Assembly (NCBI GenBank): GCA_003553505.1
Contig: PWEN01000034.1
Coordinates: forward strand, 1-39,270
Source of the DNA: Candidatus Nealsoniibacteriota bacterium
GTDB taxonomy: Bacteria; Patescibacteriota; Minisyncoccia; Minisyncoccales; PWPS01
Reading direction: 5' to 3'
DNA: 39,270 nucleotides
Position 1 is the first letter of the stretch. Each line of letters begins with the position of its first letter. The position numbers and the translations under genes were made by a program. The notes beneath the pieces were generated by a model. It saw nothing but the letters and a program-made list of their open reading frames with translations, had not been told where the DNA came from and ran no database searches. Positions 183 to 16,244 of the stretch are shown piece after piece.

Positions 183-1778
183 ATGAGAAAATTCAAAGCC
201 GCAGTAGTGTCTCTTGCTCTACTTCTTACACCCTTCCTAATACTTGCGGAAGAGGATGAGTTTGTCGAGGTTCATATAGGAGGAGCAAACGAAAAAGCAA
301 CAGGGGTTGATTGCTTCGATCACTATGAGTTCGGAAGTATTGGAATGGATATGTCTTCTGATAAGTCCGATTATAAAGCGGGTGATACGGTCTCTTTTGA
401 GGGAAGACTTAAGAACAACAACAGCTATCCTGTGACGGGAGGTGGTCTTCATGTGCAGATATTCAGGAGCAATGATGATTACCAGAAAAAAGCGGGGAGT
501 GATATGATAGAAGAGTTTTTTGCGGAAGAAGATATAGCAATTGCGGCAAACTCCTCTGGTCGAACAAGTTTTGAGTGGCAAATTCCAGAAGCGATATCGG
601 GCGGTGATTACTTTGCCGCTGTTGATTTTGTGGTTGATAGATCGTTAAATCTTACGGGAGCACCTATACTAGAGGGTGTTCATGGTGAATTGGTGCATTT
701 TACGGTAGAAAGCGATGAAGCAGGAGACGTAATTTTCAATAAAGAGAGAGTAACTGTGAACGGAGAGCAGTTTCTTTCAAGGGATTTTGTTCCCAAGATA
801 GAAGAAGGAGAAAGAGTTTCTATAGATTATGTATCCAAAAACTTAAGTGAGGATCATCAGTCTGTAACGATAAATGAAAGGCTGTACTACTGGGATAATC
901 TAAAAGAGGAGAATCTCTTAAAAGAAAACAGTCATAATCTTGCTGTTGGGCCTCGCTCAGAGTCAAGCAGGAGTGTTGATCTGGGAGATCTTGATCCGGG
1001 AACTTACCTTTTGGAACTTTCTACAGAAAGCGATAGTGGCGTTCCCGCAAAGATGAATATACGGTTCTCTGTAGAAGGGGCTCCTCTTCCTTCGAGGATA
1101 AACTTTTACTCTCTGGAGAACTTTCCTCTTCAAGCCGGAGAAACGGGATATGCCTTTGTTTGTTTTCACTCTGTTGCTGATAAGGTGACCGGAGAGCAAG
1201 AGGTGCTATTAGAGCTTACCGATAGCGAGGGAAACATCATAAAAGAGATTGACTACAAAGGAGAGATATCTCCTGGCATGATGGCGATAAGAGAAGAGTT
1301 TACTGCTGATAAGGACTATAACGACTTAAGCTTAAGTGCTACCGTTTACAACGAAGAAGGCGAAGTAATTGATTCATCTACTCTTAATTATGCACCGGAA
1401 AACTTTGGCGCGGCTACCTCTGTTTCTGTAGAGATGGAAGAGGATGAGCTTGTTATTTCTGCTCTTGATATGTTTGACAATCCTGTAGAGGCGGAGATGG
1501 CGATAGAAGTGAAAGACAGAGAAGGGGAAACGGTCTTTTTTGAGCCTTCTTTTTCTGGAGAAGAGTTTAGAAAAGATATTGGCATTGATAAGGAGAAAAG
1601 TTATGAGGTGACAGTGCTTACATCGGAAGAAGGACTAAAAGAAAGTGGCCATGTTGGAGCCGTTCCTATAATGGAAGAAAAAGACGATCTTATTATGATC
1701 GGAGCAGCAATATTTGGCCTGCTTGTCATATTAGTCATTATATTTGTAGTAGTGTATAAAAAGAGATCAAAAATATGA
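183..1778 (+). CDS. membrane-anchored extracellular beta-sandwich protein
   Basis: This is a 531-residue protein of unrecognised family. Residues 1-22 form a Sec signal peptide (basic start, hydrophobic core, LILA cleavage site). The mature part is acidic and beta-rich, with Ig-like stretches such as SDYKAGDTVSFEGRL and LQAGETGYAF. Near the C-terminus a single membrane helix (about 504-526) is followed by the basic tail KKRSKI, so the bulk should face outwards. I chose the ATG at 183 over the open frame from 33 because the signal peptide starts there and it lies behind the promoter; the upstream 50 residues look non-coding. It overlaps the next gene by four bases (ATGA), which suggests translational coupling. 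The neighbours suggest a cell-surface role, perhaps linked to pili; this is inference. Confidence 0.75.
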   Translation: MRKFKAAVVSLALLLTPFLILAEEDEFVEVHIGGANEKATGVDCFDHYEFGSIGMDMSSDKSDYKAGDTVSFEGRLKNNNSYPVTGGGLHVQIFRSNDDYQKKAGSDMIEEFFAEEDIAIAANSSGRTSFEWQIPEAISGGDYFAAVDFVVDRSLNLTGAPILEGVHGELVHFTVESDEAGDVIFNKERVTVNGEQFLSRDFVPKIEEGERVSIDYVSKNLSEDHQSVTINERLYYWDNLKEENLLKENSHNLAVGPRSESSRSVDLGDLDPGTYLLELSTESDSGVPAKMNIRFSVEGAPLPSRINFYSLENFPLQAGETGYAFVCFHSVADKVTGEQEVLLELTDSEGNIIKEIDYKGEISPGMMAIREEFTADKDYNDLSLSATVYNEEGEVIDSSTLNYAPENFGAATSVSVEMEEDELVISALDMFDNPVEAEMAIEVKDREGETVFFEPSFSGEEFRKDIGIDKEKSYEVTVLTSEEGLKESGHVGAVPIMEEKDDLIMIGAAIFGLLVILVIIFVVVYKKRSKI

Positions 1779-3811
1779 ACAAAAAAATATTATTATTAAC
1801 AATTGCCATGCTCTTCTTTGGCTTCTGGGGACTTTCCGAAGCAAGTGTGGGGGTTGATACAAGAAATCCCGGCAAGATGCACAGCAACCAGCTTTTTAAC
1901 AGAACTGCTGTTTGTGACAATATTAGATTCCCCAGTTCTGTTTCTTGTGATACGATTTATCAGTCGGCAATGGAAAACGGTGAAAGACAGTACGCAAGAC
2001 ATCTCTCTTTTAGTGTTGACTACTCTGTTAGCACGAGTTATGGAGCAAGTTTTGTAGAGGGGTTTACGAATAACTCCATATCTTCTGACCTCAAAAAGGG
2101 AAACATAGTGAGGTTTAGCTCGCTTAGTGATCCGGAGGGAGAGTGGTATTTTGCAGGATCCTACTTTGACACTCCTCCTATTGAGTGGAGAAGTGACTCT
2201 AGGTCTGATTATGAAAACATGGAACCTATAAATGAGACTTCGAGTCACAGCGTAAAGGCTGCTGACATAATAAATGTTGCTGATGCAGGAGGATGGACAA
2301 ACGTTTTTGAGCCGGAGCTTGGCATTGCCGCTACTGATCCTATGGAGAACAACAAGATAACTTTTCAGGGTGATGACAAGTTTGAGACCTTTACGATGAA
2401 GGGTGATCACTACGCTATCGCAGAAAGCGAAGGCATTGGTCATCTGGAGGGTGCTGTGGATGACACGCATGCTTATGCAACGATTGATAACCTCTGGTTT
2501 GACGAAGGGGTTCTTTCCGGCTCTAGCACAGAAGAGGACTTTTCTATATCGGAAAATGTTCACGCTATTCCGGAGATCGATGCTGGAGATGACAAGTTTG
2601 TTGCCATGGGTGGCAGCACCACCATTGATGCGGAAGGATATCACCCGGATGGGGAAGACCTCTACTATCTTTGGGAGTGTGAAGAAGGTTCTCTTGAGGA
2701 TGACGAGGCAGAGAAACCGACATACAATGCTCCCATGACTGAAGGAGACTATGAGTGCAGAGTTGTTGTTTATGATGACAATAACAAAGGTGCGACCGAC
2801 ACTGTTACTATGCATGTAGTGGAGAGCAATCCTCCTCACTCTCCTGAGAATCTTGACTATAGCATAGAGAATGTAAACGACTGTAGTGGTGCGGGAAGCA
2901 CGCCTACGCTTTCGTTTGATTACAGTGATCCTGACGGAGATGACATGGAGAAAGTAGAGATATCATTTGATGGTCCGGAGTATGAAACAAAAACTTTCAA
3001 TGAATCGGCGAGTTCCGGTGATAGGGTTGATGTAGAGCTTTCGCCTGACTGGAGTGGGGCAGAGGAATGGGGAGAAAAAGTTGAGTGGATCGTAAAAGTG
3101 AAAAACGATATGGGTTTTTGGTCAGACTCTTCAAGTAGCACTCTTACAAACAGAGACAAGCCGGAGCCGGAGTTGACCTTGACCGGTGTAGAGTTCAAGG
3201 ATGATCTCCAGTGCAGAGGGCCACACTCTGTACCGACCTTCCTCTGGGAGTATTCTCACCCTGACAGGTGTTCTGCGGAGTATAGGATTATGATCGATCA
3301 CGGAGGAGTTCTTGAAGGTTCTGTTGATCATGGAGATGTAATGGAGAATACTCTTTCTCCCAATGATTGGGAAGGAGATGATGAGTGGGGAGAAAGTGTG
3401 AACTATAATTTGGAGGTGGAGGATGAGTACGGGTTTACTGATAATAGTCAGAGTAACTTCAATAATCTTGTGAGACCTTATCCTCAACCCGCTCTCTCTT
3501 GGACGCCACAAGAAATTCACGCAAAAGACCTTGTTGAGTTTACCGGAGAAGATGAGTCTGGATGGAAACAAGAAATTGAGAGGAGATTCTTTTTCGAGTT
3601 CACGGAAAATTCTGATCCGGAAAGTGATACTATTACCACGACTGATACCGAGGCTGTTTCCGAGGTAGAGTTTGGAACGGATGATGTCGGTAAAGAGATA
3701 AATGTAAAATTAAGAATTACCGATACAGAGCTTGGCAATAGCTGCAAGATAGGAGATGATGATGGAGATATAGGAGAAATCCTTCATCCTCTTCCTGAGT
3801 ATCACGAATAA
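1775..3811 (+). CDS. secreted PKD-domain surface protein
   Basis: This is a 678-residue protein with a signal peptide at residues 1-23 (cleavage after SEA). There is no C-terminal membrane helix or sorting motif, so it is probably secreted. Residues about 266-350 form a PKD-like domain (DAGDDKFVAMGGSTTIDAEG, then LYYLWECEEG, ending DTVTMHVVES). Two related beta-domains follow (about 351-470 and 470-580), each with a YSDPDGDD- or YSHPDRCS-like core and a WGExVxxxxxVxxxxGF motif. A last domain (580-678) resembles the C-terminus of the giant protein encoded at 4315-8514. PKD domains usually mediate protein or carbohydrate contacts in extracellular proteins. Its start lies in the ATGA overlap with the anchored protein upstream, so the two are probably made together. 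A terminator follows. Confidence 0.75.
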   Translation: MNKKILLLTIAMLFFGFWGLSEASVGVDTRNPGKMHSNQLFNRTAVCDNIRFPSSVSCDTIYQSAMENGERQYARHLSFSVDYSVSTSYGASFVEGFTNNSISSDLKKGNIVRFSSLSDPEGEWYFAGSYFDTPPIEWRSDSRSDYENMEPINETSSHSVKAADIINVADAGGWTNVFEPELGIAATDPMENNKITFQGDDKFETFTMKGDHYAIAESEGIGHLEGAVDDTHAYATIDNLWFDEGVLSGSSTEEDFSISENVHAIPEIDAGDDKFVAMGGSTTIDAEGYHPDGEDLYYLWECEEGSLEDDEAEKPTYNAPMTEGDYECRVVVYDDNNKGATDTVTMHVVESNPPHSPENLDYSIENVNDCSGAGSTPTLSFDYSDPDGDDMEKVEISFDGPEYETKTFNESASSGDRVDVELSPDWSGAEEWGEKVEWIVKVKNDMGFWSDSSSSTLTNRDKPEPELTLTGVEFKDDLQCRGPHSVPTFLWEYSHPDRCSAEYRIMIDHGGVLEGSVDHGDVMENTLSPNDWEGDDEWGESVNYNLEVEDEYGFTDNSQSNFNNLVRPYPQPALSWTPQEIHAKDLVEFTGEDESGWKQEIERRFFFEFTENSDPESDTITTTDTEAVSEVEFGTDDVGKEINVKLRITDTELGNSCKIGDDDGDIGEILHPLPEYHE

Positions 3812-3836
3812 AAAGCTAGGAAGTTGTGCTTTCAAT

Positions 3837-3870
3837 GGAGCGTGTTTACTGCACGCTCCTTTGCATTTTT
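3837..3870 (+). terminator. intrinsic terminator
   Basis: The arms GGAGCGTG (3837-3844) and CACGCTCC (3852-3859) pair perfectly around a 7-base loop and are followed by TTTGCATTTTT. It lies 26 bases after the stop of the PKD-protein gene and should end the first two-gene unit. Confidence 0.8.
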
Positions 3871-3912
3871 GAAAAAATTATTTAAAATAAAGTAAAGATT
3901 ATCAATAAGCTT

Positions 3913-4314
3913 ATGGACAACACTTTGAAGATTATAATTATAGTGCTGATAATTCTCCTAATTGGAGGATTAGCGTGGCTCTTTGTGGGTTTTATGGAAG
4001 AGGAAGACCTTCCGGAGGAAGATTTAGAAAAAGAGGAGATATATAGTTTTAGTGGTGTGGTTTCTTCTACAGAAAATGGCTCTTTTGTTGTGGTGTTAGA
4101 AGAGGAGGAGAGGGAGTTAGTTATTGACCCATCTGATGATACTCGCATTTTTCGCTCTGATGTTCCCGAAGAGAGAGATTCTGTATTTACAATGGAAACG
4201 ATAGATGTAGATGTTGATGACATAAAAGAAGGTGACCGTGTTTTCATAAAAAGCAAAGTAAATGTCTTTGGACTGGAAGAGTTGGAAGACATTGACTATA
4301 TAGAAGTCATTTAA
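3913..4314 (+). CDS. small membrane-anchored hypothetical protein
   Basis: This is a 133-residue protein with one N-terminal membrane helix (about residues 6-28, poly-Ile/Leu). A very acidic linker (EEEDLPEEDLEKEE) and a compact beta-rich domain (about 43-133) follow. The pattern FSGVVSSTENGSFVVVL, then IKEGDRVFIKSKVN, resembles a small OB-like barrel, as in DUF5666-type proteins; this is only a shape argument. It was not recognised as a named family. The stop codon directly abuts the ATG of the giant surface protein, so the two are probably co-translated. A helper or tether for that protein is possible but unproven. Confidence 0.65.
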   Translation: MDNTLKIIIIVLIILLIGGLAWLFVGFMEEEDLPEEDLEKEEIYSFSGVVSSTENGSFVVVLEEEERELVIDPSDDTRIFRSDVPEERDSVFTMETIDVDVDDIKEGDRVFIKSKVNVFGLEELEDIDYIEVI

Positions 4315-7300
4315 ATGAGGTTATTAAAGACAATAAAAGCAACCCCCTTAATCTTGTTTTTTGCTTTTTGTGTTGTTTTTGCAGGTGGTAGTATTACGGG
4401 AGAAGTGTCTGTGGACAAGACAGAGGTTGGTATGGGAGAGGATTTTGAGATAGAGGTAGAAGGAGAGGACGAGAATGATGCGCAAATAGACTACATTTGC
4501 TATAAAGAAGAAGATGAAGAGGACTGGACTTGTTATGATGACTGTGATAGCAGTGAGTGCAGCTACTCTTTTGAGAGGTCAGAAGACTCTTCTGGTGAGA
4601 AAAGATATCACGGAAGAGTTGTTAATGTAGAGGGTGATATTGGACTTACCGAATTTAGCGAATCGGTTACTGTTTTTGAGCCTACCGGAGAGATATCTCT
4701 AGATGAGATGGAAGTGGGCACAGGAGACAGTTTTAATATAGATGTTCACGGAGAAGATCTTATTGATATAAGTCATGTATGTTACAGGGAAGAAGATGAA
4801 GAGGACTGGACTTGTTATGATGACTGTGATAGCAGTGAGTGCAGCTACTCTTTTGAGAGGTCGGAAGACTCTCCTGATACCTATAACTATTATGGAGTGA
4901 TCGTTAACGAAGAGGGTTTTAGTGGATTTACTGATCCGGAAAGTGCGCAGATTGATGTGGTCTCAGAGCCATCCGTGGAGACGTTTTCCGTTGTTGATCG
5001 TGCAGAAGAAAGCGTTACTCTCAAGGGCTATGTTTCCGGATTTGGTGGATCGGATTCCGTGGAAGCGGGTTTTCAGTACAAAGAGAAAGAAGAAGGAGAA
5101 TATACAAAAGAGAGTGAGACCGTTCTTGTTCATGACGAGCAGGAATACTTTGAGATTTCTCTTGAAGGTCTTGTTCCGGGGGAGGTTTACTCTTTTAGGG
5201 CATTTGCTTCTAATGTTGCGGGAAGAGAGTATGGAATGGAGATGCTTACAACAGAGCTTATAAAAAATGGTTATTTTCAAACGGGCAACATAGATGGGTG
5301 GGACCATACTGAGCGTGGAAACCACAAGGTGGTAGAAGAAGAGGGAAATTATTATGGAGAATTTGGCTTTAAGGATGAGAAGGGGAGTGGTGCAAGCAAG
5401 TTTTATCAGGTTGTTTCTATTCCCGAGAACGCTTCCGATATTCGTTTTTCTGCAGAGTATAAGTATTACACCTATGATTATGATGAATATGATGAGTTTA
5501 GGATACGTGTAAACGATGAGGATTTTGACGTCTTGGAAGTCATTGAGAGACTGAGGTGTCCATCAACCATTCCTCGAGCATGGAGCTCTTGTTTTCAGAG
5601 AGAAACGAGGGTTGACTTTGGTCCTGAAACCGTTTCAGCCGATCTTAGTGATTATGCCGGAGAAACGGTTATACTGTCTCTTGGCAACTGGAGAGATGAT
5701 GATAAAAGAAGATCATGGGGAAAGATAACAGACGTCACCATGACTTATACTCCTGCACTTTCTCCTTCCGTTGAGACAGAGCCTGTTGACTACACCGATA
5801 CGGGAAGTGCTCTCCTTGGTGGTGATCTCACCGATATGGGACAGTCTGATGTGGTTGACACGTGGTTTGTGTGGGACGACACTTCTCATGGAAATATTAA
5901 TATGTACGAGAACAGAACAGAAGAGAGTTCTGTCTCAGAGAAAGGAGTGTTCAATGATCTCCTTGGAAACCTTGAGTCTGATACAACTTACTATTTTAGG
6001 GCGGTAGCGGAAACAAATGGTGGTCTTGATTTTGGAAATGAGAAGACATTTGAAACAACGTACTCTGCTTCTGGGGGCTGGCGTCTACCGGACTATCATA
6101 ATGATGTAAGTAACATGTGGCGGGACGAGCAGGACGCTTATGATTGGGACACCGCTACTCGTGCGGGAAACTCTGGTGGGGCTGGAGGAACAGGGCCCCG
6201 TGGGTATTTGGAGTTTCATTTAAATCAGCCCTTGCTTTCAAACAAGATAAGGGTTAGTGGAACAGGAGAAGGATCTCCTTCCGGATCTTTGGCGGAGATC
6301 GATATTCGTTATGCGGGTGACACGCAGTGGACAAGAATATTTGAAAATGAAAGACTTCCTCGCAATCATCAATATGTAGAGGTGAGCTTTGATGAAGACC
6401 CGGTTGAAGCGGCAAGGTTCAGGTTTGATTATGAGGTCAGTGGATGGAACAGCACAATAGGAGAGTTTCAGTTCTACGAGGTTCCCGATGAGCCGATAAC
6501 TCCTCCTACTGCAGAAACGCTCGAAGCGGAAAGAGTAGAGGAAGAGTATGCTACTGTAAAAGGTAGAGTACTTGATGACGGAAGGGATCCTGTTGATGCA
6601 AGATTTAAGTACTGGAACAAGGACAACCCTGAGGATGTTATGTATACGGAGTGGGACGAGGGAATCACTGGCGATGTTGTCGGATGGGCTACAGGAGAAG
6701 TTTTTGGTCAACGGATAACTGGACTTGAAGAAGGAGAAGAGTACAGTTTTCGCGCACAGCTACGAAACAGCGCCACAGAGGACGGCGATCCGGTAGAAGG
6801 AGGAGAGAAGAGCTTTGTTGCCCGCATTGCTGACAGGGGATGGGTTTCTCCGGCAGAGTCTTGCGGAACGTGGGATCAGGAGTATGAGTATTATGCTTAC
6901 GATACTATCGAAGATACTCTTGCTGCTGTAACGCGTCAGTATGGATCTCCCCAATGGGGTCCGCGCATCGAATTTACTCGTGAGCCAATATTTTCCGATA
7001 AAATAAGATTTAGGTTGCCGGATGCTACATATCAGGGTTCTCCCATCATAACAAGTGCGGAAGTAAGAATAAACGTAGAAGGCAATATCTATACTGTTTT
7101 TAGTGGTTCTGGGTTTAATAGGGGAGATTGGACGGAAGTTGATATATCTTCTTATACTTTTTCGGGAAACAATCCTTTGCGGGTGAAGGGGGCTGATATG
7201 AGATTAGAGATGTATAGCAACGGCTACTTTCCTTACGAACTTGATGAGTTTGATTTCCATAAGCTCTCTGATTTTCCGGAAGTGGAAACGGTTCACGGCT

Positions 7301-8514
7301 CTTCAGAGCTAAAGGATGATGGTGAAATAGAAGTTGATTTTGCCGGTGAGCTTATTTGCAGAGGAGGAGCGGATGAGGTTGATGTTTGGATGGAGTGGAG
7401 AAAAGAGGGGGAGAGCTATGCTACCGGAGGAAGTACGGAAAGAAAGACGTTATCGGAAGCCGATGAGTTTTTTGAGACAGTTAAGGGAGAGTTTGAAACG
7501 GATACAACATATTACTACAGAGCAGTGGCGGAGAACGAGACAGGCATCTCTTATGGTGATGATGATGACTACTTTTTGACTGATGGATGTACTCCGGGGG
7601 ACACCTATGATTGTGTGTCTTATCCCGATGATTGGGAGAGTGGTCCGAAGTGTACTTATGCTATTACTTGTTCTGAAGATGGTGAGTGGGCGGATCGTTG
7701 CGAAGTGCGAGAGTGTGCAACAGATTTTGACTGTATGAGCTGTGAGGAGTATCTTGAAGAACAGGAGGGGCTTGAAATAGAAGGAGATCCCGTTTGTACA
7801 GATGAGTGTTACTGTGACTATAGTAATTGTGAATATGTTTCCGACATTGAGATAGGGGACCTAGAAGAAGAGATGAACTACTGTGCGCGCACAGAAGGAA
7901 GTGGGACAGTGGGGGAGTGGGAAGTAGGCGGAGAAACAGTTCATGACTTAAGCATGCAGCTCAGGTTTAGTTTTGACTATGAGGAAGGTACAGGAGATCC
8001 CGACCGTTTTTATATAGAGATAGAAGATGAAGATGGAAATGTATTTTCTGATGATAGAGGCATATTTACAGAGGGCACACAGACCTACCATCTTACTCCC
8101 GGAAACTTGGATTGGCCTGATGGAAGCAATAGAATAGAAGGTGGCAAGGAGTATACTTGGAGGGTGAGAGTTGATGATTCGGAGTGGGAAGAAAGTTCTT
8201 TTGTCGTAGACTCAACTCCTTGGCCTTTTGCTTATTTTTCTCGTGACCCGGAAGGTGATATCTTTACGGAAGAAGAGGTGTATTTTGAGTCTCACTCGGA
8301 GGTTTATGAAGGAAGTTCTTCTCTTTTTTTGACTTTTTCAGGAGGAGACCCTTCGACTTCTGATGAAGATGATGTTGTTGTTTCCTTTGATGACCCTGTG
8401 GAGGCAGAAGTAGAGTTGGAAGTAGAGGACGGACTTGGAAGGAGTTGTGATGTTTCCGAAATGATCAGCGTGGATCACGCTCCTCCTCACTGGAAAGAGA
8501 TCCCTCTTAGATAA
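4315..8514 (+). CDS. giant modular secreted surface protein, possible adhesin
   Basis: This is a 1399-residue protein with an N-terminal signal peptide (about 1-24). Approximate layout: two homologous ~94-residue modules (28-215), a fibronectin-III-like domain (217-315), a beta-sandwich starting NGYFQTGNIDGW that resembles carbohydrate-binding modules (317-480), a second Fn3-like domain (485-583), and a discoidin/F5-8C-like domain (585-728). Then come a third Fn3-like (730-838), a second discoidin-like (840-985) and a fourth Fn3-like domain (990-1090), a cysteine-rich module with about 12 Cys (1092-1172), another Fn3-like domain and a PKD-like C-terminal domain (about 1300-1399). The Fn3-like units share the ending TTYYFRAVAE. 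It is strongly acidic, with no membrane anchor or catalytic motif seen. Its gene directly precedes pilD and the prepilin genes, so a role as a pilus-associated adhesin is inferred. Domain names are by eye. Confidence 0.7.
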   Translation: MRLLKTIKATPLILFFAFCVVFAGGSITGEVSVDKTEVGMGEDFEIEVEGEDENDAQIDYICYKEEDEEDWTCYDDCDSSECSYSFERSEDSSGEKRYHGRVVNVEGDIGLTEFSESVTVFEPTGEISLDEMEVGTGDSFNIDVHGEDLIDISHVCYREEDEEDWTCYDDCDSSECSYSFERSEDSPDTYNYYGVIVNEEGFSGFTDPESAQIDVVSEPSVETFSVVDRAEESVTLKGYVSGFGGSDSVEAGFQYKEKEEGEYTKESETVLVHDEQEYFEISLEGLVPGEVYSFRAFASNVAGREYGMEMLTTELIKNGYFQTGNIDGWDHTERGNHKVVEEEGNYYGEFGFKDEKGSGASKFYQVVSIPENASDIRFSAEYKYYTYDYDEYDEFRIRVNDEDFDVLEVIERLRCPSTIPRAWSSCFQRETRVDFGPETVSADLSDYAGETVILSLGNWRDDDKRRSWGKITDVTMTYTPALSPSVETEPVDYTDTGSALLGGDLTDMGQSDVVDTWFVWDDTSHGNINMYENRTEESSVSEKGVFNDLLGNLESDTTYYFRAVAETNGGLDFGNEKTFETTYSASGGWRLPDYHNDVSNMWRDEQDAYDWDTATRAGNSGGAGGTGPRGYLEFHLNQPLLSNKIRVSGTGEGSPSGSLAEIDIRYAGDTQWTRIFENERLPRNHQYVEVSFDEDPVEAARFRFDYEVSGWNSTIGEFQFYEVPDEPITPPTAETLEAERVEEEYATVKGRVLDDGRDPVDARFKYWNKDNPEDVMYTEWDEGITGDVVGWATGEVFGQRITGLEEGEEYSFRAQLRNSATEDGDPVEGGEKSFVARIADRGWVSPAESCGTWDQEYEYYAYDTIEDTLAAVTRQYGSPQWGPRIEFTREPIFSDKIRFRLPDATYQGSPIITSAEVRINVEGNIYTVFSGSGFNRGDWTEVDISSYTFSGNNPLRVKGADMRLEMYSNGYFPYELDEFDFHKLSDFPEVETVHGSSELKDDGEIEVDFAGELICRGGADEVDVWMEWRKEGESYATGGSTERKTLSEADEFFETVKGEFETDTTYYYRAVAENETGISYGDDDDYFLTDGCTPGDTYDCVSYPDDWESGPKCTYAITCSEDGEWADRCEVRECATDFDCMSCEEYLEEQEGLEIEGDPVCTDECYCDYSNCEYVSDIEIGDLEEEMNYCARTEGSGTVGEWEVGGETVHDLSMQLRFSFDYEEGTGDPDRFYIEIEDEDGNVFSDDRGIFTEGTQTYHLTPGNLDWPDGSNRIEGGKEYTWRVRVDDSEWEESSFVVDSTPWPFAYFSRDPEGDIFTEEEVYFESHSEVYEGSSSLFLTFSGGDPSTSDEDDVVVSFDDPVEAEVELEVEDGLGRSCDVSEMISVDHAPPHWKEIPLR
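4507..4590 (+). repeat. tandem module repeat, copy 1
   Basis: This stretch is identical to 4789-4872 except for one base (A at 4581, G at 4863), at a period of 282 bases (94 codons). It encodes the EEDEEDWTCYDDCDSSECSY segment in the first module of the giant surface protein. Confidence 0.9.
4789..4872 (+). repeat. tandem module repeat, copy 2
   Basis: This is the second copy of the 84-base near-identical block, in the second module of the giant surface protein. The surrounding parts of the two modules are clearly related in protein but far more diverged in DNA. Local gene conversion or selection on this block is therefore likely, rather than a fresh duplication of the entire module. Confidence 0.9.
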
Positions 8515-8515
8515 T

Positions 8516-9196
8516 ATGATGGACATTTACTTTTCAATAGCTGTTTTTCTTATTGGCCTCGGTGTGGGGTCTTTTTTGAATTACTCCATAGAAAAACTTG
8601 AAAAGAGAGACTCTTTTGAGTCAAGTGAAAAATATCCTGTCGTGCACATTGCTACTGCGCTTGTTTTTCTTTTCAGTTTTCTGCACTACTTTCCTTTTAC
8701 GGGATTTATGGGAGTTTTGGAATTTATTTTTACCCTTATTATTCTCTCTTTTCTTGTCTTTTTATTCTTTTATGACTTAAGACACTTCATAATTCCCAAT
8801 GAAATTATTTATCCCGCTATATTTATAACAGTAGCTTATCTCGCGGTGGTTGGTTATTTTGAAGGTCTTTCTTTTGTTCTTGGAAACGTTATTTCTGCAG
8901 TGGGAGCGTTTCTCTTCTTTCTTTTTATATACTACATCACCAAGCAAAAAGGAATGGGCTTTGGTGACGTGCGCTACTCTTTCTTTATGGGTCTTTTCCT
9001 GGGGTTTCCCGGCATACTGGTAGGTCTGTTTTTTTCTTTTCTTATTGGTGCTATAATCGGATCAGGACTTATTATTTGTGGTAAAAAGGGAAGAAAGAGC
9101 GAGGTTCCGTTTGGACCGTTTCTTATCACGGGAACACTTTTGGCTTGGTTTTATGGAGAGGAGATCATGAGTCTCTATTTGAATTTTTATGTATAA
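8516..9196 (+). CDS. pilD: prepilin peptidase, minimal form
   Basis: This polytopic 226-residue aspartic peptidase removes the leader of type IV prepilins at the inner face of the membrane. The two catalytic aspartates are visible: D87 in FYDLRHFIIPN and D151 in the GxGD motif GMGFGDVR. The N-terminus keeps the GLGVGSFLNY start, but the cytoplasmic loop with two CxxC pairs found in classical PilD is absent, and the only cysteine is near the C-terminus. Classical PilD also N-methylates the new N-terminus, so methylation may be missing or done elsewhere. A second in-frame ATG at 8519 is an alternative start. It overlaps the first prepilin gene by eight bases and clearly belongs to the pilin operon. 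Confidence 0.92.
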   Translation: MMDIYFSIAVFLIGLGVGSFLNYSIEKLEKRDSFESSEKYPVVHIATALVFLFSFLHYFPFTGFMGVLEFIFTLIILSFLVFLFFYDLRHFIIPNEIIYPAIFITVAYLAVVGYFEGLSFVLGNVISAVGAFLFFLFIYYITKQKGMGFGDVRYSFFMGLFLGFPGILVGLFFSFLIGAIIGSGLIICGKKGRKSEVPFGPFLITGTLLAWFYGEEIMSLYLNFYV

Positions 9197-9761
9197 AAAA
9201 GACGGATTCACAATAATAGAATTACTTGTTGTGATAGCAGTGATTGGTGTAGTTGCTACTTTCTCTTTTGCAAGTTACTCTTCTATAGAGGATGAGTTAA
9301 GCCTTGAAAGAGAGATGGGGGAGATATTGGGAACAGTGAACACCGCAAGGGACTATGCCATAGCGTCTTGGTACCCGAAAGAGGGATTCTTGGAAGATTA
9401 TCTGGAAGATGAAGACAACGCTTTTCATGGGGGTTATGGTGTTGCTTTTGATGTTGACAGTAGTACCTATAAGCTTTTTGCAGACTTGGAAGACGAGGAA
9501 GGGGGGAGCATAGATGATGTAGAAATTATAGAGACCTTTGAGATGGAGGAGGTGATGAGCGTGGAGAGCGTTGATATTGATGGAAGTGCAGAGGACCGCC
9601 TTTATGTTGTTTTTCGTCCTCCAGATTTGCTTGTCTTTTTTAATGGAGAAGATGCCATAGAAAACGACTCTGAAGCTGTTATTACTTTTTCTTATGGTGG
9701 TTTGGATTATACAAGAGAAATATCAATAAATCCTTATGGAGTGTCAGAATACAAAAAATAA
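9189..9761 (+). CDS. type IV prepilin, FimT/GspH-like minor pilin
   Basis: This is a 190-residue prepilin. A short basic leader (MYKKDG) is followed by the class III signal FTIIELLVVIAVIGVV, with cleavage expected between G6 and F7 and Glu at mature position 5. The helix continues into LGTVNTARDYAIA, which resembles the AR-x-AI pattern after the first helix in FimT/GspH pilins. The globular part is acidic and beta-rich. It is the first of four prepilin genes, overlapped by pilD upstream (8 bases) and by the PilV-like gene downstream (26 bases). A minor pilin that helps prime pilus assembly is the best reading; a major pilin cannot be excluded. Confidence 0.85.
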   Translation: MYKKDGFTIIELLVVIAVIGVVATFSFASYSSIEDELSLEREMGEILGTVNTARDYAIASWYPKEGFLEDYLEDEDNAFHGGYGVAFDVDSSTYKLFADLEDEEGGSIDDVEIIETFEMEEVMSVESVDIDGSAEDRLYVVFRPPDLLVFFNGEDAIENDSEAVITFSYGGLDYTREISINPYGVSEYKK

Positions 9762-10320
9762 TAGAGGATTTATCTTTATAGAGTTGATGACTGTAATTGC
9801 CATTATAAGTGTGGGAATGGTTGCCGCTATGGCTATGATAGACAGAACAAAAGCAGAGGTAAACATTGTAAGAGAAAGATTTGCAGCAACTTACTTGGGA
9901 CAAGAAGGAATAGAGATCGTAAGAAATATAAGGGATGCAAATTGGATGGAAGATGGAGCGTGCTGGCTTGACGGACTGCACCTTGAAGGGGAAGAGTACG
10001 GAACAACGCTTATTTCCAAGGCCAGTTATGATGAGTTGGACTCTTTGGAAGAGCTTTACATTGGCACCGGAGATGACATTGAGGATTATTATGATGATAC
10101 GCGCTTATATATTGATAACGATGATCGTTATCACCATGATGGAGGAGGAGAGTTTGGAGGTTTTTCACGCGTTATAGAGGTAAGCTTGGAGAGAGATGAA
10201 GATAAAGACGAAGACTACTTAGAGGTTGATGTTTATGTGCAGTGGAGTGGCGGAGAAGTTCATATTAGTAAAGTTTTATACAACTGGCTAAGCATAAGAA
10301 GTGATTGTAACGATGGCTAA
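9736..10320 (+). CDS. type IV prepilin, PilV-like
   Basis: This is a 194-residue prepilin with the leader MECQNTKNNRG and the mature helix FIFIELMTVIAIISVGMVAA (Glu at mature position 5). The stretch TYLGQEGIEIVRNIRDANW after the helix is typical of the PilV-like pilins seen in many Patescibacteria. The C-terminal half is acidic (DDIEDYYDDTRLYIDNDD). The long overlap with the FimT-like gene places its leader inside the neighbouring reading frame. Position two in the minor-pilin order fits PilV. It is exported through PilD and would sit at the pilus tip or base. Confidence 0.82.
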   Translation: MECQNTKNNRGFIFIELMTVIAIISVGMVAAMAMIDRTKAEVNIVRERFAATYLGQEGIEIVRNIRDANWMEDGACWLDGLHLEGEEYGTTLISKASYDELDSLEELYIGTGDDIEDYYDDTRLYIDNDDRYHHDGGGEFGGFSRVIEVSLERDEDKDEDYLEVDVYVQWSGGEVHISKVLYNWLSIRSDCNDG

Positions 10321-10837
10321 AAGAAACGAAAAAGGAGTTTCACTTATAGAGTTATTGGCAGGAATGGCGATATTTTCCATACTTGTTGTTGTTCTTACCG
10401 GGATCTTTGTTGGCTCTATAAGAAATCAGGTGAACGTTCTTGAAAGCCAAAAATTAATAGGGGAGATAAGATATGTTTTGGAGAATGTAAGTCGCGTCGG
10501 TATGCTTGCCAGAACGGATACGGGAGGCACTTGTCTTAGTGAGTCCGAAAAATCTTATGAGTTTATTGGTGATGAATTTTCTTTCATTGATGACAGAGAA
10601 AGGTGTAACGTCTACTCTGTGGATGATGGTGTGATATATAGAAAACTTATAGAAGACAGAGGGTCGGGGGCTGAAATAGAGCGACGCCTGACATCTCCGG
10701 AGGTAAGTGTTGAAAGGTTTGATGTGGAGATCATTGATGGGGGAGAACAAGAAAAGGTTATGCTTTTGATTGAGATGAAGACAGAAGGGGTATCAGCACA
10801 TGCTCAAACAACTTTTTCTAAAAGAACACTAAGATGA
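10313..10837 (+). CDS. type IV prepilin, PilW-like
   Basis: This is a 174-residue prepilin from the ATG at 10313. The leader MAKRNEKG is cleaved before VSLIELLAGMAIFSILVVVL, with Glu at mature position 5. An ATG at 10301 would add MIVT to the leader but gives a less usual signal. The continuing helix LESQKLIGEIRYVLENVSR and the globular part with two cysteines suit PilW-type minor pilins. It overlaps the PilV-like gene by eight bases and the PilX-like gene by four. Assignment as PilW rests mainly on gene order. Confidence 0.82.
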   Translation: MAKRNEKGVSLIELLAGMAIFSILVVVLTGIFVGSIRNQVNVLESQKLIGEIRYVLENVSRVGMLARTDTGGTCLSESEKSYEFIGDEFSFIDDRERCNVYSVDDGVIYRKLIEDRGSGAEIERRLTSPEVSVERFDVEIIDGGEQEKVMLLIEMKTEGVSAHAQTTFSKRTLR

Positions 10838-11199
10838 ACAACAAAGAACAAAAAGGAGCAATCATGATAGGCCTTGTGGTCATTGTGATGTCAATTGTTT
10901 TAATGATAGGAGTGGGAATAAGCACGATACACCTTAGAAGTTTAAGGGCGGTGGAGACGACAGAGGAGTCCATAAGAGCTCTTTATGCTGCGGATAGTGG
11001 CTTGGAGGCCACACTTCTTTATGTTTATGGAGATGCTGGATCCCCCACTCCTCAAGACAAGACAGAGATGCACAACAACGCCTTTTATTATACGGAATCA
11101 AAAGATTCTGATCATGATGAATGTGATGCCGAGTTTTATTGCGTGGATAGTTTTGGTCAGTATGAGGACATCAGAAGAGCTCTTGGAGTAGAGTACTGA
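10834..11199 (+). CDS. PilX-like minor pilin
   Basis: This is a 121-residue protein with the N-terminus MNNKEQKGAIMIGLVVIVMS. It has a processing-site glycine and a long hydrophobic helix but lacks the Glu5 of ordinary pilins. The next segment RALYAADSGLEATLLYVY matches the AADSG-E-A signature of PilX N-terminal domains. The protein is short (classical PilX is about 170 residues) and holds two cysteines near the end. It is the last gene of the pilin operon, sharing ATGA with the PilW-like gene. GspK-like helpers also lack Glu5, so a tip-capping role is plausible. Confidence 0.78.
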   Translation: MNNKEQKGAIMIGLVVIVMSIVLMIGVGISTIHLRSLRAVETTEESIRALYAADSGLEATLLYVYGDAGSPTPQDKTEMHNNAFYYTESKDSDHDECDAEFYCVDSFGQYEDIRRALGVEY

Positions 11200-11284: not shown

Positions 11285-11647
11285 ATGAGACTTGCCGCGA
11301 TAACGATGATAATGATGATGGCAGTGATGGTAGGTTGTGGGCACTATCAGGGTGAGTGGAAGATAGGGGAAAAGCCCCATTTCCGCTTTAGAGAAAGCGT
11401 CCTTGTAGTAAACAACCTCAAATACGAAGTTGTTGTCATCTATCGTTCCTCTTGGGGAGAGGAGCGCAGGGAACGCTTTTCTCCCGGTCAAGAAGGAATG
11501 TTGACTGGACTAAGAGAGGATGAGTACCTTACAGCACAGGTGCTTAAAAATGGCTCCGTAATTGGGACTGCTACAAAGCAAGTGAGTAGTCCCCGTGGCG
11601 AAGGACCTGATCACTGGCGTATAACAAGGTACAGGTCGCTTCGTTAA
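11285..11647 (+). CDS. small secreted lipoprotein of unknown function
   Basis: This is a 120-residue protein. The N-terminus MRLAAITMIMMMAVMVGCG is a lipoprotein signal with a C18 lipobox (VMVGC), so the mature protein should be lipid-anchored outside the cytoplasmic membrane. The mature part is basic and beta-rich, unlike the acidic proteins around it. It contains NNLKYEVVVIYRSSWGEERR, then LREDEYLTAQVLKNGSVIGT, which suggests one small beta-sandwich. No family was recognised. It has its own promoter with a palindrome, a G-rich ribosome-binding region (AAGGGGGGTG) unusual here, and its own terminator, so it is a single-gene unit between the two convergent pilus blocks. Arginine codons are mixed (CGC, CGT, AGA, AGG), whereas neighbours favour AGA; recent acquisition is possible. 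Confidence 0.7.
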   Translation: MRLAAITMIMMMAVMVGCGHYQGEWKIGEKPHFRFRESVLVVNNLKYEVVVIYRSSWGEERRERFSPGQEGMLTGLREDEYLTAQVLKNGSVIGTATKQVSSPRGEGPDHWRITRYRSLR

Positions 11648-11654
11648 GCTCTTT

Positions 11655-11684
11655 AAGGGTCTTCTTGGAAGACCCTTTTTATTT
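11655..11684 (+). terminator. intrinsic terminator
   Basis: The arms AAGGGTCTTC (11655-11664) and GAAGACCCTT (11668-11677) pair perfectly around a 3-base loop, followed by TTTATTT. It ends the lipoprotein unit. It also lies between the convergent lipoprotein and pilC genes; on the - strand no good U-run follows the stem. Confidence 0.85.
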
Positions 11685-12885
11685 AGAATGTCATTCCCAT
11701 TTGGTATATGGGGAGAATAATTGATGCGACAAGTCCTCCCACAAGCGCTCCTAATACTATTATCATTGCAGGCTCTATCATGCTAACATATTTATCAAGA
11801 CTTTCTTCTATTTGTTTTTTGTATATTTTTATAACACTTTGCAGTGTTTGACTTACCTTACCGGTTCTCTCTCCAACAGCGATCATTTGTATAACCATGT
11901 AAGGAAAGTAGTCGGAGTGGCTTTTAAGCAGTACACTGATCTGTTCTCCTTTTTCAACACCTTCTTTTACCTCGTCTAGTATGTCTCTATACACTTTGTT
12001 TCCTATTACGTTCCTTGTTACTTCCAATGACTCTATTACGGAAACTCCTCCCGCAAAAAGAGTAGAGAAGTTTTGCGCAAAGCGGTAAAGATATAGTTTT
12101 TTGAAAAAATCTCCCAGCACGGGCAATCTCAGCATCATTCTGTCTTTTATATCTTTCCCTTGCTTGGTGGTGAAAAATTTTGCAACAATCGTAGCGACAA
12201 GAAAGATACCGAGAAGTATGTACCATCCTTGGTAGCGTATAGTGTCAGAAATAGCAATCGCTATCTGGGTTATGAGTGGCAACTCTCCCATCTCTTCGAT
12301 TATCTCTATCATTTCCGGCATCACTGTTATAAACAAGAAAAGAAGAACTATTGTGAACACGGAAAGTATGACGAGAGGGTATGTCATTGCTCCCGTTAAC
12401 TTTTTTTTAAGCTCATGATTTGATCTCTCGTGCTCTGCAAGATAAGAGAAGCTTTTGTCCAGTCCTCCCACTGTTTCTCCTGCCCTTATGATATTTATGT
12501 AAAAATCGGAGAATATATCAGAGTGCTTTTCAAGAGATTTGGAAAGATTGTCTCCTTTTTCTATATTGTGTGATATATCAAGCAACTTTTCTCTGAATTT
12601 GTTGCTGGAAACCTGACTTGATACCATTCTCAGAGACTCTGTTACCGATATTCCGCTTCCCAACATTACGGACATCTGTTCCGGGAAAAGTATAAGCTCT
12701 TCTTTCGGTATTCTTTCAAGTATGGCTATATCTTTTTCCCAGAAAGGAATCTTCTTCTCTTCTACAGAGATTATATAGAAACCTTCCTCTTGAAGGAGCA
12801 TTATAGCGGACTCTTTGCTGGAGGCGTCCACTTCTCCTTCTTTTAGTGATCCGTGTTTATCTTTTGCCTTATATTCAAACTTCAT
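11683..12885 (-). CDS. pilC: type IV pilus inner-membrane platform protein
   Basis: This is a 400-residue GspF/PilC-family protein. An N-terminal domain (about 1-55, starting MKFEYKAKDKHGSLKEGEVD) precedes two homologous T2SSF cytoplasmic domains (about 65-165 and 268-370). Each carries the family's GE(T/R)xGxL-like signature (RAGETVGGLDKSF, VGERTGKVSQTL). Membrane helices lie at about 167-189, 220-238 and 372-393. Length and layout are normal. PilC is the platform through which the PilB ATPase drives pilin polymerisation. The ATG overlaps the pilB stop by one base (TAATG), so it is translationally coupled as the last gene of the machine operon. Confidence 0.95.
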   Translation of the reverse strand: MKFEYKAKDKHGSLKEGEVDASSKESAIMLLQEEGFYIISVEEKKIPFWEKDIAILERIPKEELILFPEQMSVMLGSGISVTESLRMVSSQVSSNKFREKLLDISHNIEKGDNLSKSLEKHSDIFSDFYINIIRAGETVGGLDKSFSYLAEHERSNHELKKKLTGAMTYPLVILSVFTIVLLFLFITVMPEMIEIIEEMGELPLITQIAIAISDTIRYQGWYILLGIFLVATIVAKFFTTKQGKDIKDRMMLRLPVLGDFFKKLYLYRFAQNFSTLFAGGVSVIESLEVTRNVIGNKVYRDILDEVKEGVEKGEQISVLLKSHSDYFPYMVIQMIAVGERTGKVSQTLQSVIKIYKKQIEESLDKYVSMIEPAMIIVLGALVGGLVASIILPIYQMGMTF

Positions 12886-14612
12886 TAGTCGGTTTCTTTT
12901 GTTGCTTTGAGGACCTCTTCTACGGTGGTCAAGCCTTCAAATGACTTATATATGCCGTCTTGCCTCATGCTTATCATCCCGGACTGATAAGCGGCTTTCT
13001 CAATAACATCTCTGTCTGCGTTTTCCAGTATCGCTTTCTTTAATTTCTCATCCATCTTCATTACTTCAAAAATTCCCACTCTTCCCCTGAATCCTTCACT
13101 GCCGCACTTGTTGCATCCTCCGGGTTTATGTGTTTTCATTGATTTAGGTGCAGACAAAGAAGGGTTTTCACTTATTTCGTTTTTTATAAGGGTTTCCATG
13201 TCTGCCTCTGGCGTTACTTTCTCTTTACACTCCTGGCATAGTTTTGGTACAAGTCTTTGAGCTATTACGGAGTTTAGCGCAGGAGAGATAAGAAAAGGTC
13301 TTACTCCCATATCCAGAAGCCTTGGTATTGCTCCCACGGCGGAGTTTGTGTGGAGAGTGGAGAGTACTATATGTCCCGTTAGTGCCGCGTGAATCGCAAG
13401 TTCTGCCGTTTCTTCGTCCCTTATCTCTCCCACCATTATTACATCGGGGTCTTGCCTTAGTATCTGCCTTAATCCGCTTGCAAAAGTATATCCTATATCA
13501 GGCTTTGTTTGTGACTGATTAACACCCTCCATGTAGTATTCTACCGGATCTTCGAGAGTAACTATATTTACTTCTTCTTCATTTAACTCTTTAAGGATAG
13601 AGTAGAGAGTAGTGGTCTTACCTGATCCTGTTGGTCCGGTAACCAGTATAAGTCCGTTAGGCTCTTGTGTTGATTTTTGAGCCAGCTCAAGATTGTTTCC
13701 CGAAAGACCGAGATCTTCCATCTCCATAAGTGCTTTTTCGGAGTCAAGAACCCTTATTACCACTTTTTCTCCTTGTGTGGTTGGCAGGGTGGAGACACGA
13801 AAGTCGATATTTTTATTTTCTACTTCTGTGGAGAATCTTCCGTCTTGTGAAAGCCTCCTTTCATCTATTCTTAAGTTAGACAGTATCTTTATTCTTGCCA
13901 CTATCGCTTGGTGTATCTTCATGGGAAGAAAAAGGGAAGAGTATAGTTTACCGGAAACACGGAAGCGCACTTTTAGTTGTTCTTTACTTGGCTCTATGTG
14001 TATGTCGGAAGCTTCTCCTTCAACCGCTTGTTTCATGATCACTCCCACCATTCTTATTATCGGCGCTTCTTCCGCAAGTTCTCGAAACTCTCTCTCTGTT
14101 TCAGATACTTCTTCCTTCTCTTCTTCTGTGTCTTCTTCTTTTTCTATCTTTTGCATTGCAGAACCAACCTCTTCCTCCAGTGTTTGATACTGCCTTAAAA
14201 GTTTATTGAAATCACTTATTTTTATAAGGTATATCTTGTATTCGAATTTGTTCCTGTAAGCTAGAAAGTCAAGAGCCTCTTTTGTTTTCAAGTTTTCCGG
14301 ATAAACCATTCCTACTTCTATCTTTTCTCCCTCTTTTCCTATGGGAATCATGTTATAGGACTTGGCCGTTTCTCTCGGTATGCATTTTATGGTTGCATCA
14401 GAAACACTGTCCATGTTTATATCATCTTTCAGTGGCACATCTATTGCTCTACTTTTAATCGAGAAAAGATCATCTTCTGAAAGAATACCTTCTTCTATTA
14501 TCATCTCTTCTACTTCCTTGTACTCGCTCTTTGCTTGCGCATTTAAAGAAAGAGCCTTTTCTTTGTCGATGACTCCTTCTTCTTCTAGTTTCTTCAGTAT
14601 CATGTTTGACAT
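12885..14612 (-). CDS. pilB: type IV pilus assembly ATPase
   Basis: This is a 575-residue GspE/PilB-family hexameric ATPase that powers pilus extension. The N-terminal region (1-145) resembles the GspE/MshEN-type domain that contacts PilM or c-di-GMP in relatives. A charged linker rich in Glu (155-178) follows. The catalytic part has an Asp box (SDIHIEPSKEQLKVRFR, 202-218), Walker A GPTGSGKT (326-333), Walker B with VGEIRDE (394-400), a His box (HIVLSTLHTNSA) and two zinc-binding Cys pairs (C459/C462 and C500/C503). All key motifs are intact. No PilT retraction ATPase is seen in the window, so retraction is either encoded elsewhere or absent. Confidence 0.96.
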   Translation of the reverse strand: MSNMILKKLEEEGVIDKEKALSLNAQAKSEYKEVEEMIIEEGILSEDDLFSIKSRAIDVPLKDDINMDSVSDATIKCIPRETAKSYNMIPIGKEGEKIEVGMVYPENLKTKEALDFLAYRNKFEYKIYLIKISDFNKLLRQYQTLEEEVGSAMQKIEKEEDTEEEKEEVSETEREFRELAEEAPIIRMVGVIMKQAVEGEASDIHIEPSKEQLKVRFRVSGKLYSSLFLPMKIHQAIVARIKILSNLRIDERRLSQDGRFSTEVENKNIDFRVSTLPTTQGEKVVIRVLDSEKALMEMEDLGLSGNNLELAQKSTQEPNGLILVTGPTGSGKTTTLYSILKELNEEEVNIVTLEDPVEYYMEGVNQSQTKPDIGYTFASGLRQILRQDPDVIMVGEIRDEETAELAIHAALTGHIVLSTLHTNSAVGAIPRLLDMGVRPFLISPALNSVIAQRLVPKLCQECKEKVTPEADMETLIKNEISENPSLSAPKSMKTHKPGGCNKCGSEGFRGRVGIFEVMKMDEKLKKAILENADRDVIEKAAYQSGMISMRQDGIYKSFEGLTTVEEVLKATKETD

Positions 14613-14614
14613 AT

Positions 14615-14854
14615 TTAGTAGATGTTAAAAGGGTTTTCTCTTCCTGATCTGTCAAGTTCAATTGGCCCTATTCTGTTAAATGATTCTAGCTTCTCAAATA
14701 AGGGGCTATCTAAGAACTTATAGTTTTCTTCCGGAATATGTCTTTCTCTTACCATTGTTTCATCTTGTGGGGCAGAGTATATCTGCCACAGTGAAAAGGC
14801 AGCTGTTATAATAACAAGCACTATTAGTATTTTTATTAATTTACTTTGTAGCAT
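14615..14854 (-). CDS. small membrane protein in the pilus operon
   Basis: This is a 79-residue protein with an N-terminal membrane helix (about 7-25, IKILIVLVIITAAFSLWQIY). A short, probably extracytoplasmic tail ends in GRENPFNIY. Its place between pilO and pilB is where pilP is found in Gram-negative clusters. The RENPF ending recalls the R-x-PF motif near the start of PilP and of proline-rich pilus proteins (inference). It is far shorter than PilP (about 170 residues) and lacks its beta-domain. One-base TAATG overlap with pilO and a 2-base gap to pilB make co-translation likely. It may be a reduced alignment-complex subunit. Confidence 0.7.
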   Translation of the reverse strand: MLQSKLIKILIVLVIITAAFSLWQIYSAPQDETMVRERHIPEENYKFLDSPLFEKLESFNRIGPIELDRSGRENPFNIY

Positions 14855-15369
14855 TATTCTGTGTAATAATAAGCGCTTAGGTTCACACTAAAAAGGTTAA
14901 GCCACTCGTCTTCTTCTATTTGAATGCTATTAACTTGAAATATTCTTTCGTTCTCTTCTATCTTGGACAGAAGGTCTCTAAAAGAAGGGTAGCTACCCTT
15001 AACAGTAAAATTAAAGTTTATTTTATCGAAGAAAACTGTTGTGTCATCTTCTTCTATTTGAAAGTTTGCCAAGTTTACTATGATCATATCATTTTCTCTT
15101 GCCATATTTTCAATATGAGAAAGGATGGCTGGCACTTCAGGATTATCGGGAAGAGTCACAGCAGTCTTTCCTATTTTGTCGAGATAGTCACTTCTTGTTC
15201 TGCTTAGATCGTGCATTTTTTCTATATACTCTTTTTTGTTTTCGACTACTCTTTCTTGGTATTCAATATCTTCCTTTACTTCAAATATCTCCTTTGCCGA
15301 GGGAAAGGTAAGACCTCCCATTATTATAAGGGAAAGAGCAAAAAGTATAATGCAGATTCCTTTTATCAT
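14854..15369 (-). CDS. pilO: type IV pilus alignment protein PilO-like
   Basis: This 171-residue protein has one N-terminal membrane helix (about 5-21), a coiled-coil stretch (about 30-65, KEDIEYQERVVENKKEYIEK) and a ferredoxin-like C-terminal domain. That domain contains the PilO-like pattern FNFTVKGSYPSFRDLLSKIE followed by RIFQVNSIQIEE. PilO pairs with PilN in the inner-membrane alignment complex that links PilM and PilB to the pilus. The length is slightly below the usual 200 residues. It sits two bases after pilN. The assignment rests on fold pattern plus gene order and is strong. Confidence 0.88.
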   Translation of the reverse strand: MIKGICIILFALSLIIMGGLTFPSAKEIFEVKEDIEYQERVVENKKEYIEKMHDLSRTRSDYLDKIGKTAVTLPDNPEVPAILSHIENMARENDMIIVNLANFQIEEDDTTVFFDKINFNFTVKGSYPSFRDLLSKIEENERIFQVNSIQIEEDEWLNLFSVNLSAYYYTE

Positions 15370-15371
15370 TT

Positions 15372-16241
15372 CTATTTTATCCCGAGAATCCTCGGATTAA
15401 GTTTTAATCTGATATGAAAATCTACTTCTCCGTAGAACGGTAACTCTCTTTCTGCAATATCTTCCTCTGTAATGTCTCCATCTTCTGTTGTGGAATACAA
15501 AACATTTACTTTTTCTATCATGTTCTCTGAAGAAAGATGTACACTTTCTTCATCAAGCGTCTCTTTTGTTATATCCTGCAGAGTGGTGATTTTCACAGGA
15601 TAATCAAGCAGATCAGAGATGTCTTCTTCTACACTTTCCAACTCAATCTCTTCTTCTCTAATAGTTTCTCCCTCTGGAGAGGCAAATTTGGCGATCAGCC
15701 TTCCGTTGTCACCGGAAAATCTTATAAAGTGTTTGTCCAGATCATCTCCCAGCTCGGTTATTTTTATGTTCATTACTCCACTTATATCTCCCTCCGTAAG
15801 AAGTCCTTTTTCTCTCATAACTTCTACTTGTTGCCCGAATGACCTGAAATTGTGCGCCACCCCTTCAAGAGAAGCTCTTTTTTCTTCAGTGTTGAGTTCG
15901 AGTCTTGAGAAGTAAACATTGGGATGTGTTACTGCTTCGAGCACATTAAAGAAGTTCTCACTTATCGCTCTTTCATTTATTAGCCGCTCCATAAAGCTTA
16001 TTTTCTGATAGTCCTTATTAAAGACACTTTCCCATTTTTCTATTTCCAGCACCTCAGTCTCTTTTTGTTTTAAAGTTTGAGTTATAATATGTTGCTCTTT
16101 TCGCACTTCTTTGCTGTATTCCAGTACAACAAGATGAGCCGCGGACACAAGTAGGAAAAAAAGAAGAGAAATAACAAGAAAAATCTTTTCTTTTTTTGGT
16201 ATTTTTCTTGCCTCTTTATCTTTTTTTAGTTTTATTGCCAT
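15372..16241 (-). CDS. pilN: type IV pilus alignment protein PilN-like
   Basis: This 289-residue protein has a basic cytoplasmic N-terminus, one membrane helix (about 21-41) and a coiled coil (about 43-75). An extracytoplasmic domain begins with ENFFNVLEAVTHPNVYFSRL, the usual PilN pattern. In classical PilN the first residues carry an INLLP motif that docks into PilM; here they read MAIKLKKDKEARKIP, so that motif is missing. The protein is longer than normal PilN (about 200 residues) because of an acidic C-terminal region (about 175-289). Position between pilM and pilO supports the call. Confidence 0.85.
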   Translation of the reverse strand: MAIKLKKDKEARKIPKKEKIFLVISLLFFLLVSAAHLVVLEYSKEVRKEQHIITQTLKQKETEVLEIEKWESVFNKDYQKISFMERLINERAISENFFNVLEAVTHPNVYFSRLELNTEEKRASLEGVAHNFRSFGQQVEVMREKGLLTEGDISGVMNIKITELGDDLDKHFIRFSGDNGRLIAKFASPEGETIREEEIELESVEEDISDLLDYPVKITTLQDITKETLDEESVHLSSENMIEKVNVLYSTTEDGDITEEDIAERELPFYGEVDFHIRLKLNPRILGIK

Positions 16242-16244
16242 AAG

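Follow-up and report, generated by a model that had tools for sequence, protein, structure and literature searches.

The DNA stretch analysed here (the window, 39,270 nucleotides) is the whole of contig C65 from an 810-kb, 68% complete genome (G000) of a Candidatus Nealsoniibacteriota bacterium of the order Minisyncoccales. On its forward strand, a secreted modular protein of 1399 residues is encoded beside a set of minor-pilin genes, and this protein, together with the C-terminal module that it shares with other secreted proteins, is the subject of this work. Genes were assigned by open reading frame (ORF) calling and a Pfam scan, and hairpins by pattern match only. From 3913 to 11199, the genes are ordered C133, 1399-residue protein, pilD, fimT, pilV, pilW, and pilX, with neighbours overlapping or 0–1 nt apart, and genes for two secreted proteins of 531 and 678 residues lie upstream. 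An earlier note on this DNA had described pilD and the fimT-pilV-pilW-pilX set following the 1399-residue protein, with two more secreted proteins upstream, and the ORFs, their coordinates, and the Pfam matches bear this arrangement out. The note had overlooked the 133-residue N-anchored protein at 3913–4314 and the C-terminal module common to the 1399- and 678-residue proteins.

The 531-residue protein (183–1778) contains an MG2-like beta-sandwich stretch (Pfam E = 2.9e-6, just under the cut-off) and a C-terminal transmembrane (TM) anchor read in the sequence. The 678-residue protein (1775–3811) contains a PKD domain and the C-terminal Ig-PKD module, ending HPLPEYHE (module match 3230–3814, E = 8e-52). 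C133 (3913–4314), a family often found beside module proteins, has an N-terminal TM helix and an OB-fold-like domain. After the gene for the 1399-residue protein (4315–8514) come pilD, encoding a prepilin peptidase of family A24 (8516–9196; PF01478, E = 1e-14), and genes for fimT/fimU-like (9189–9761), pilV-like (9736–10320), and pilW-like (10301–10837) minor prepilins, each matching N_methyl above the cut-off. The pilX-like gene (10834–11199) matched PilX_N weakly (E = 9e-4, under the family cut-off). The string ends with a 120-residue putative lipoprotein (MVGC lipobox; 11285–11647). Terminator-like hairpins are situated between the 678-residue protein gene and C133 (3837–3859) and after the last gene (11655–11677), and, together with the close spacing from C133 to pilX, they are consistent with one operon.

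Glu5 is present in the prepilin N-termini of FimT, PilV, and PilW, as read in the sequence. The N-terminus of the fourth pilin, MNNKEQKG/AIMIG, lacks it, as in PilX/GspK, and the gene keeps its place in the cluster in relatives. Pilins of the PilX/GspK type without Glu5 have been described (Treuner-Lange 2020, PMC7541494).

For the 1399-residue protein, the earlier note had read Fn3, discoidin-like, and carbohydrate-binding-like modules. The Fn3-type Pfam matches are real; a carbohydrate-binding module was unsupported (CBM_4_9, E = 0.23), and no Pfam model for discoidin matched. Pfam found no N_methyl in this protein, indicating that it is not an adhesive domain fused to a prepilin, as in the PilX type of TM7x. 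Among its internal repeats, a duplication near the N-terminus (4375–4960) contains the near-identical block DEEDWTCYDDCDSSECSYSFERSED.

The C-terminal module shared by the 1399- and 678-residue proteins spans about 185 residues and consists of an Ig-like domain, a PKD domain, and a short tail. In the 1399-residue protein, it occupies 7951–8511, with an Ig-like domain of the Rha78A-N type and the tail PPHWKEIPLR. A whole-protein search of 60 related genomes returned one full-length relative (G041) and many matches to the last ~185 residues, and the module also occurs in a 401-residue protein beside a second pilus locus (contig C52). Alignment of the module matches gave the tail consensus P-L-P-x-W-K/R-E-I/V-x-P-F, which is not covered by any Pfam or NCBIfam model in the proteins scanned. 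In a PDB sequence search, the PKD part matched ColH and the Ig part matched the rhamnosidase type (Rha78A). In the AlphaFold model, the module folds into two beta-sandwiches (pLDDT 85), and its tail is ordered (89–93).

The tail resembles LPXTG and PEP-CTERM sorting signals in being a short conserved C-terminal motif. Unlike those signals, it is followed by neither a TM helix nor a basic end, and it is joined to a specific PKD module. A sortase or PEP-CTERM signal was rejected, since the motif either sits at the protein end or precedes a short amphipathic stretch. Among the 2157 ORFs examined in the loci read, those ending in the motif are all module proteins (68), and a general sorting signal carried by unrelated proteins was rejected on this basis. 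A hydrophobic N-terminal export signal, without N_methyl, is present in 86 of 89 complete module proteins. In the minor-pilin context, the C-terminus lies within 5 residues of the motif in 18 of 18 proteins and the amphipathic extension occurs in none of them; these short ends are compatible with docking through the tail, without proving it. At least 10 residues follow the motif in 21 of 111 module proteins, and these extensions are mostly amphipathic or hydrophobic and rich in F, L, and K (e.g., L050, L052, L059, L062, L063, L079, L137, L140, and L149).

At E ≤ 1e-20, the module was found in 113 of the 196 genomes of the order. Among 287 genomes across the phylum, full-length module matches came from the order and from G132, a genome belonging to the same class. 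The remaining genomes matched parts of the module only (PKD or Ig), save for a weaker tail-bearing pair in G160, also of that class. Small genomes (mostly 0.4–1.2 Mb) and the gene content indicate CPR-like bacteria. The module is essentially confined to one order, and "CPR-specific" (candidate phyla radiation), as the earlier note had proposed, is too broad.

The module with its tail occurs in 111 proteins from 90 genomes and 37 families, joined to unrelated heads, including AWS-GWI repeats, PKD arrays, Fn3 domains, and an FG-GAP/PQQ beta-propeller, the last in a protein encoded beside fimT-pilV-pilW-pilX in G019. One module protein in G046 (L080:7937–10183) has a head built of an unusual Trp-, Tyr-, Cys-, and Asp-rich repeat (W-V-D-G-Y-W, C-E-D-V-W-I). 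In G056 (L034:4962–19900), five module proteins are encoded in tandem, with C133-like genes interleaved.

Linkage with minor-pilin genes was counted in two samples, namely the stretches around module and pilD matches in 60 relatives, and 60 further loci, taken from genomes that had not yet been sampled. A module gene was counted when it lay no more than 6 genes from fimT plus pilV or pilW, and the expectation was calculated for random placement, assuming two clusters and 700 genes. The counts were 11 of 54 module genes (1.9 expected) in the first sample and 11 of 61 (2.1 expected) in the second; counted by family, the first sample gave 8 of 33 (p ≤ 1e-4) and the second 5 of 18 (p = 0.03). The gaps of the same-strand module-fimT pairs (n = 10) range from -76 to +242 nt. 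The usual order in the relatives is pilMNO-B-T-C-A-pilD-fimT-V-W-X-ligA-ftsW, where ligA and ftsW were named from translations. In a minority of clusters, a module gene immediately precedes fimT, precedes pilD as in the window, follows pilW at a distance of a few genes, or is divergent. Overall, module proteins adjoin fimT-pilV-pilW(-pilX) in several arrangements across about ten families of the order, and this linkage is recurrent but optional, not universal.

All neighbours of the module genes were also clustered, with no families chosen beforehand. RNase Y (rny) ranks first (29 genomes, 15 families), and further recurrent neighbours include minor pilins, a response regulator, a kinase-like membrane protein, pilB, C133, and the housekeeping run rpmF-nusB-rnc. 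A module gene lies directly beside rny in L128, L130, L137, L142, L147, L149, L154, L155, L176, and L177, often followed by the kinase-like membrane protein, the response regulator, and a second pilB-pilC-prepilin locus, a second pilus that may be regulated. Secreted proteins of about 190–240 residues (such as NGDIIVPINAG..NKLGDLGIGG) are repeated near module genes in 10 families (L164, L183).

Convergent to the string in the window, the reverse strand encodes pilC, pilB, pilO, pilN, and pilM (11683–17294), assembly genes for which homologues were matched; pilT is missing here. A PilT homologue and major pilins are encoded in the same genome, which makes true pili likely. On contig C68 (L190:6574–7290), a second pilD is directly followed by ligA and ftsW, and the slot that fimT-pilV-pilW-pilX occupy in relatives is empty; therefore, the set in the window appears to be a separate copy that has a pilD to itself. 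On contig C12 (L045:129–1170), an ORF next to a major pilin fuses the signal-peptide region of the 531-residue protein to the 3' part of the pilin beside it, as though recombination had produced it.

The 1399-residue protein is a member of a family of Sec-exported surface proteins, specific to the order, in which an exchangeable head is joined to the Ig-PKD-tail module. The data show this family, its module and tail, the variation of the heads, the recurrent linkage with minor-pilin genes, and the operon-like gene string. We propose that these proteins dock on the minor-pilin tip and serve in adhesion, an explanation that, as a whole, we place slightly below an even chance. The 678-residue protein probably belongs to the same module family. 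The 1399-residue protein would be made together with PilD and the FimT, PilV, PilW, and PilX minor pilins. Once exported, its C-terminal module would dock on the minor-pilin tip complex, most likely on the PilX lacking Glu5, the head would project from the pilus tip and bind another cell, and retraction of the pilus would draw the cells together. Docking, tip position, adhesion, and host contact are inferred. A more tentative suggestion, which we would not expect to hold although it is a serious candidate, is that the Ig-PKD-tail module represents a new kind of docking unit, not described before, for exchangeable heads on the minor-pilin tip, doing the job of the PilY1 propeller.

PilY1 itself is predicted to dock on PilX through its conserved C-terminal part, by strand complementation, and its N-terminal part is variable (PMC13190605; PMC7541494). 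The family resembles PilY1 and Neisseria PilC in that a large Sec-exported protein with a conserved C-terminal and a variable N-terminal part (PMC13190605) is encoded with FimU/T-PilV-PilW-PilX, in the window and in about ten families. In contrast, the C-terminal part is Ig-PKD-tail here and a seven-bladed propeller in PilY1, and the gene lies mostly upstream of fimT or pilD, whereas that of PilY1 lies downstream of pilX. In agreement with the earlier note, which saw no PilY1 propeller locally, PF05567 was absent from the 1399-, 678-, and 531-residue proteins, and likewise from the module proteins scanned; the head propeller in G019 is of the FG-GAP/PQQ type. PF05567 matched in none of the 60 relatives and in none of 380 genomes across the phylum, and control genomes gave no match either, so that the absence of PilY1 is unproven. 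pilY1 transcripts have been reported for ultra-small groundwater microbes (PMC9938205). The module proteins are thus PilY1-like in layout without being PilY1 family members, and they may work like PilY1.

Several results weigh against docking at the pilus tip. Counted by family, the independent support from the second sample is modest (p = 0.03). Most of the fetched fimT-pilV-pilW-pilX clusters have no neighbouring module protein, and 63 of 111 module genes have neither a pilus nor an rny neighbour in the fetched stretch, although nearly half of all anchors are no more than 2 genes away from where the stretch ends, and at least two of the 63 have minor pilins slightly farther off (L066, L164). 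The only two full-length relatives of the 1399-residue protein (G041 and G362, about 40% identical) keep the 133-residue partner and lack pilin neighbours. The linkage in relatives that the earlier note had suggested surveying therefore holds for the C-terminal module, and was rejected for the whole 1399-residue protein. The fold search of the module returned generic Ig/Fn3 matches only, and the tail, ordered already in the monomer model, may simply complete the PKD fold.

The principal alternative is a cell-surface adhesin that is not part of the pilus. The module and tail would hold the protein at the envelope, perhaps via the membrane-anchored C133, and co-expression with pili would reflect a shared role in attachment. 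C133, whose predicted structure has an N-terminal TM helix and an OB-like domain (pLDDT 92; weak fold matches, to OB-folds only), is the only partner that the full-length relatives retain, and of the 48 C133 genes that module-bearing genomes contain, 28 are found no more than 8.5 kb from a module gene. Across genomes, however, its presence is uncorrelated with that of the module (34 of 113 genomes with the module vs 22 of 83 without), and C133 was rejected as an obligatory partner, though the physical linkage is real. Many module proteins are encoded far from pilus genes, and the amphipathic extension of about 20 residues on some tails could touch the membrane, whereas no anchor helix follows the motif in the pilin-linked members. 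Highly expressed PKD and Ig-like proteins of the related Paceibacterales have been proposed as adhesion proteins (PMC10936435), in line with an envelope adhesin. Such an adhesin does not account for the neighbours being minor pilins in particular, and in several arrangements, and we regard it as a real possibility that is somewhat improbable.

The linkage might also carry no functional tie, with surface-protein genes gathering at a tolerant site beside pilus operons. The many unlinked clusters, the great variation of the heads, and the rpmF-nusB-rnc run as another conserved context agree with this explanation, but the enrichment in two genome sets, on the same strand, with overlapping or close genes and in several distinct arrangements, makes it distinctly improbable. 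FimT, PilV, PilW, and PilX correspond to GspH, GspI, GspJ, and GspK, as would suit a pseudopilus in which the minor pilins form a type II secretion tip. Export of the protein as a cargo pushed off the surface by such a tip, to which the likening of PilY1 to a type II secretion substrate (PMC7541494) lends some support, is very improbable, since the PilT homologue and major pilins point to true pili and the module proteins bear their own export signal.

Docking of the module proteins on minor pilins can also be set beside other adhesive systems. In TM7x (Saccharibacteria), the minor pilins PilX1 and PilX2 bear jelly-roll or beta-propeller extensions, and deletion of pilX2 lowers host binding (PMC12206443). 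Both systems combine a CPR type IV pilus with an adhesive domain that has been proposed to bind the host; in TM7x the pilin itself contains this domain, whereas here it resides on a secreted protein of its own, which lacks a prepilin signal. The genome of the window also encodes, on contig C23 (L042:13951–17646), a giant prepilin with an N_methyl start followed by a long Fn3 array (at least 1232 residues, cut by the contig end). It resembles the TM7x solution, and it is preceded by a small membrane protein with weak similarity to C133. Large beta-sheet repeat proteins (>1500 residues), possible adhesins, have been described in Parcubacteria; the module proteins resemble them as large beta-sheet surface proteins of the same broad group and, as far as the parts of that description consulted go, differ in the shared module, the tail, and the pilus linkage (PMC4508563). 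In the open-licence literature, CPR pili, domain-bearing pilins of TM7x, Parcubacterial beta-sheet proteins, and expressed PKD proteins are described, and the module and its linkage were not found.

Little is known of how CPR bacteria recognize partner cells outside Saccharibacteria. If docking on the pilus tip is correct, exchanging the head would determine to which cells these ultra-small bacteria can hold on. The shared C-terminal tag would allow candidate pilus-linked adhesins to be listed across thousands of unannotated genomes and their heads to be read.

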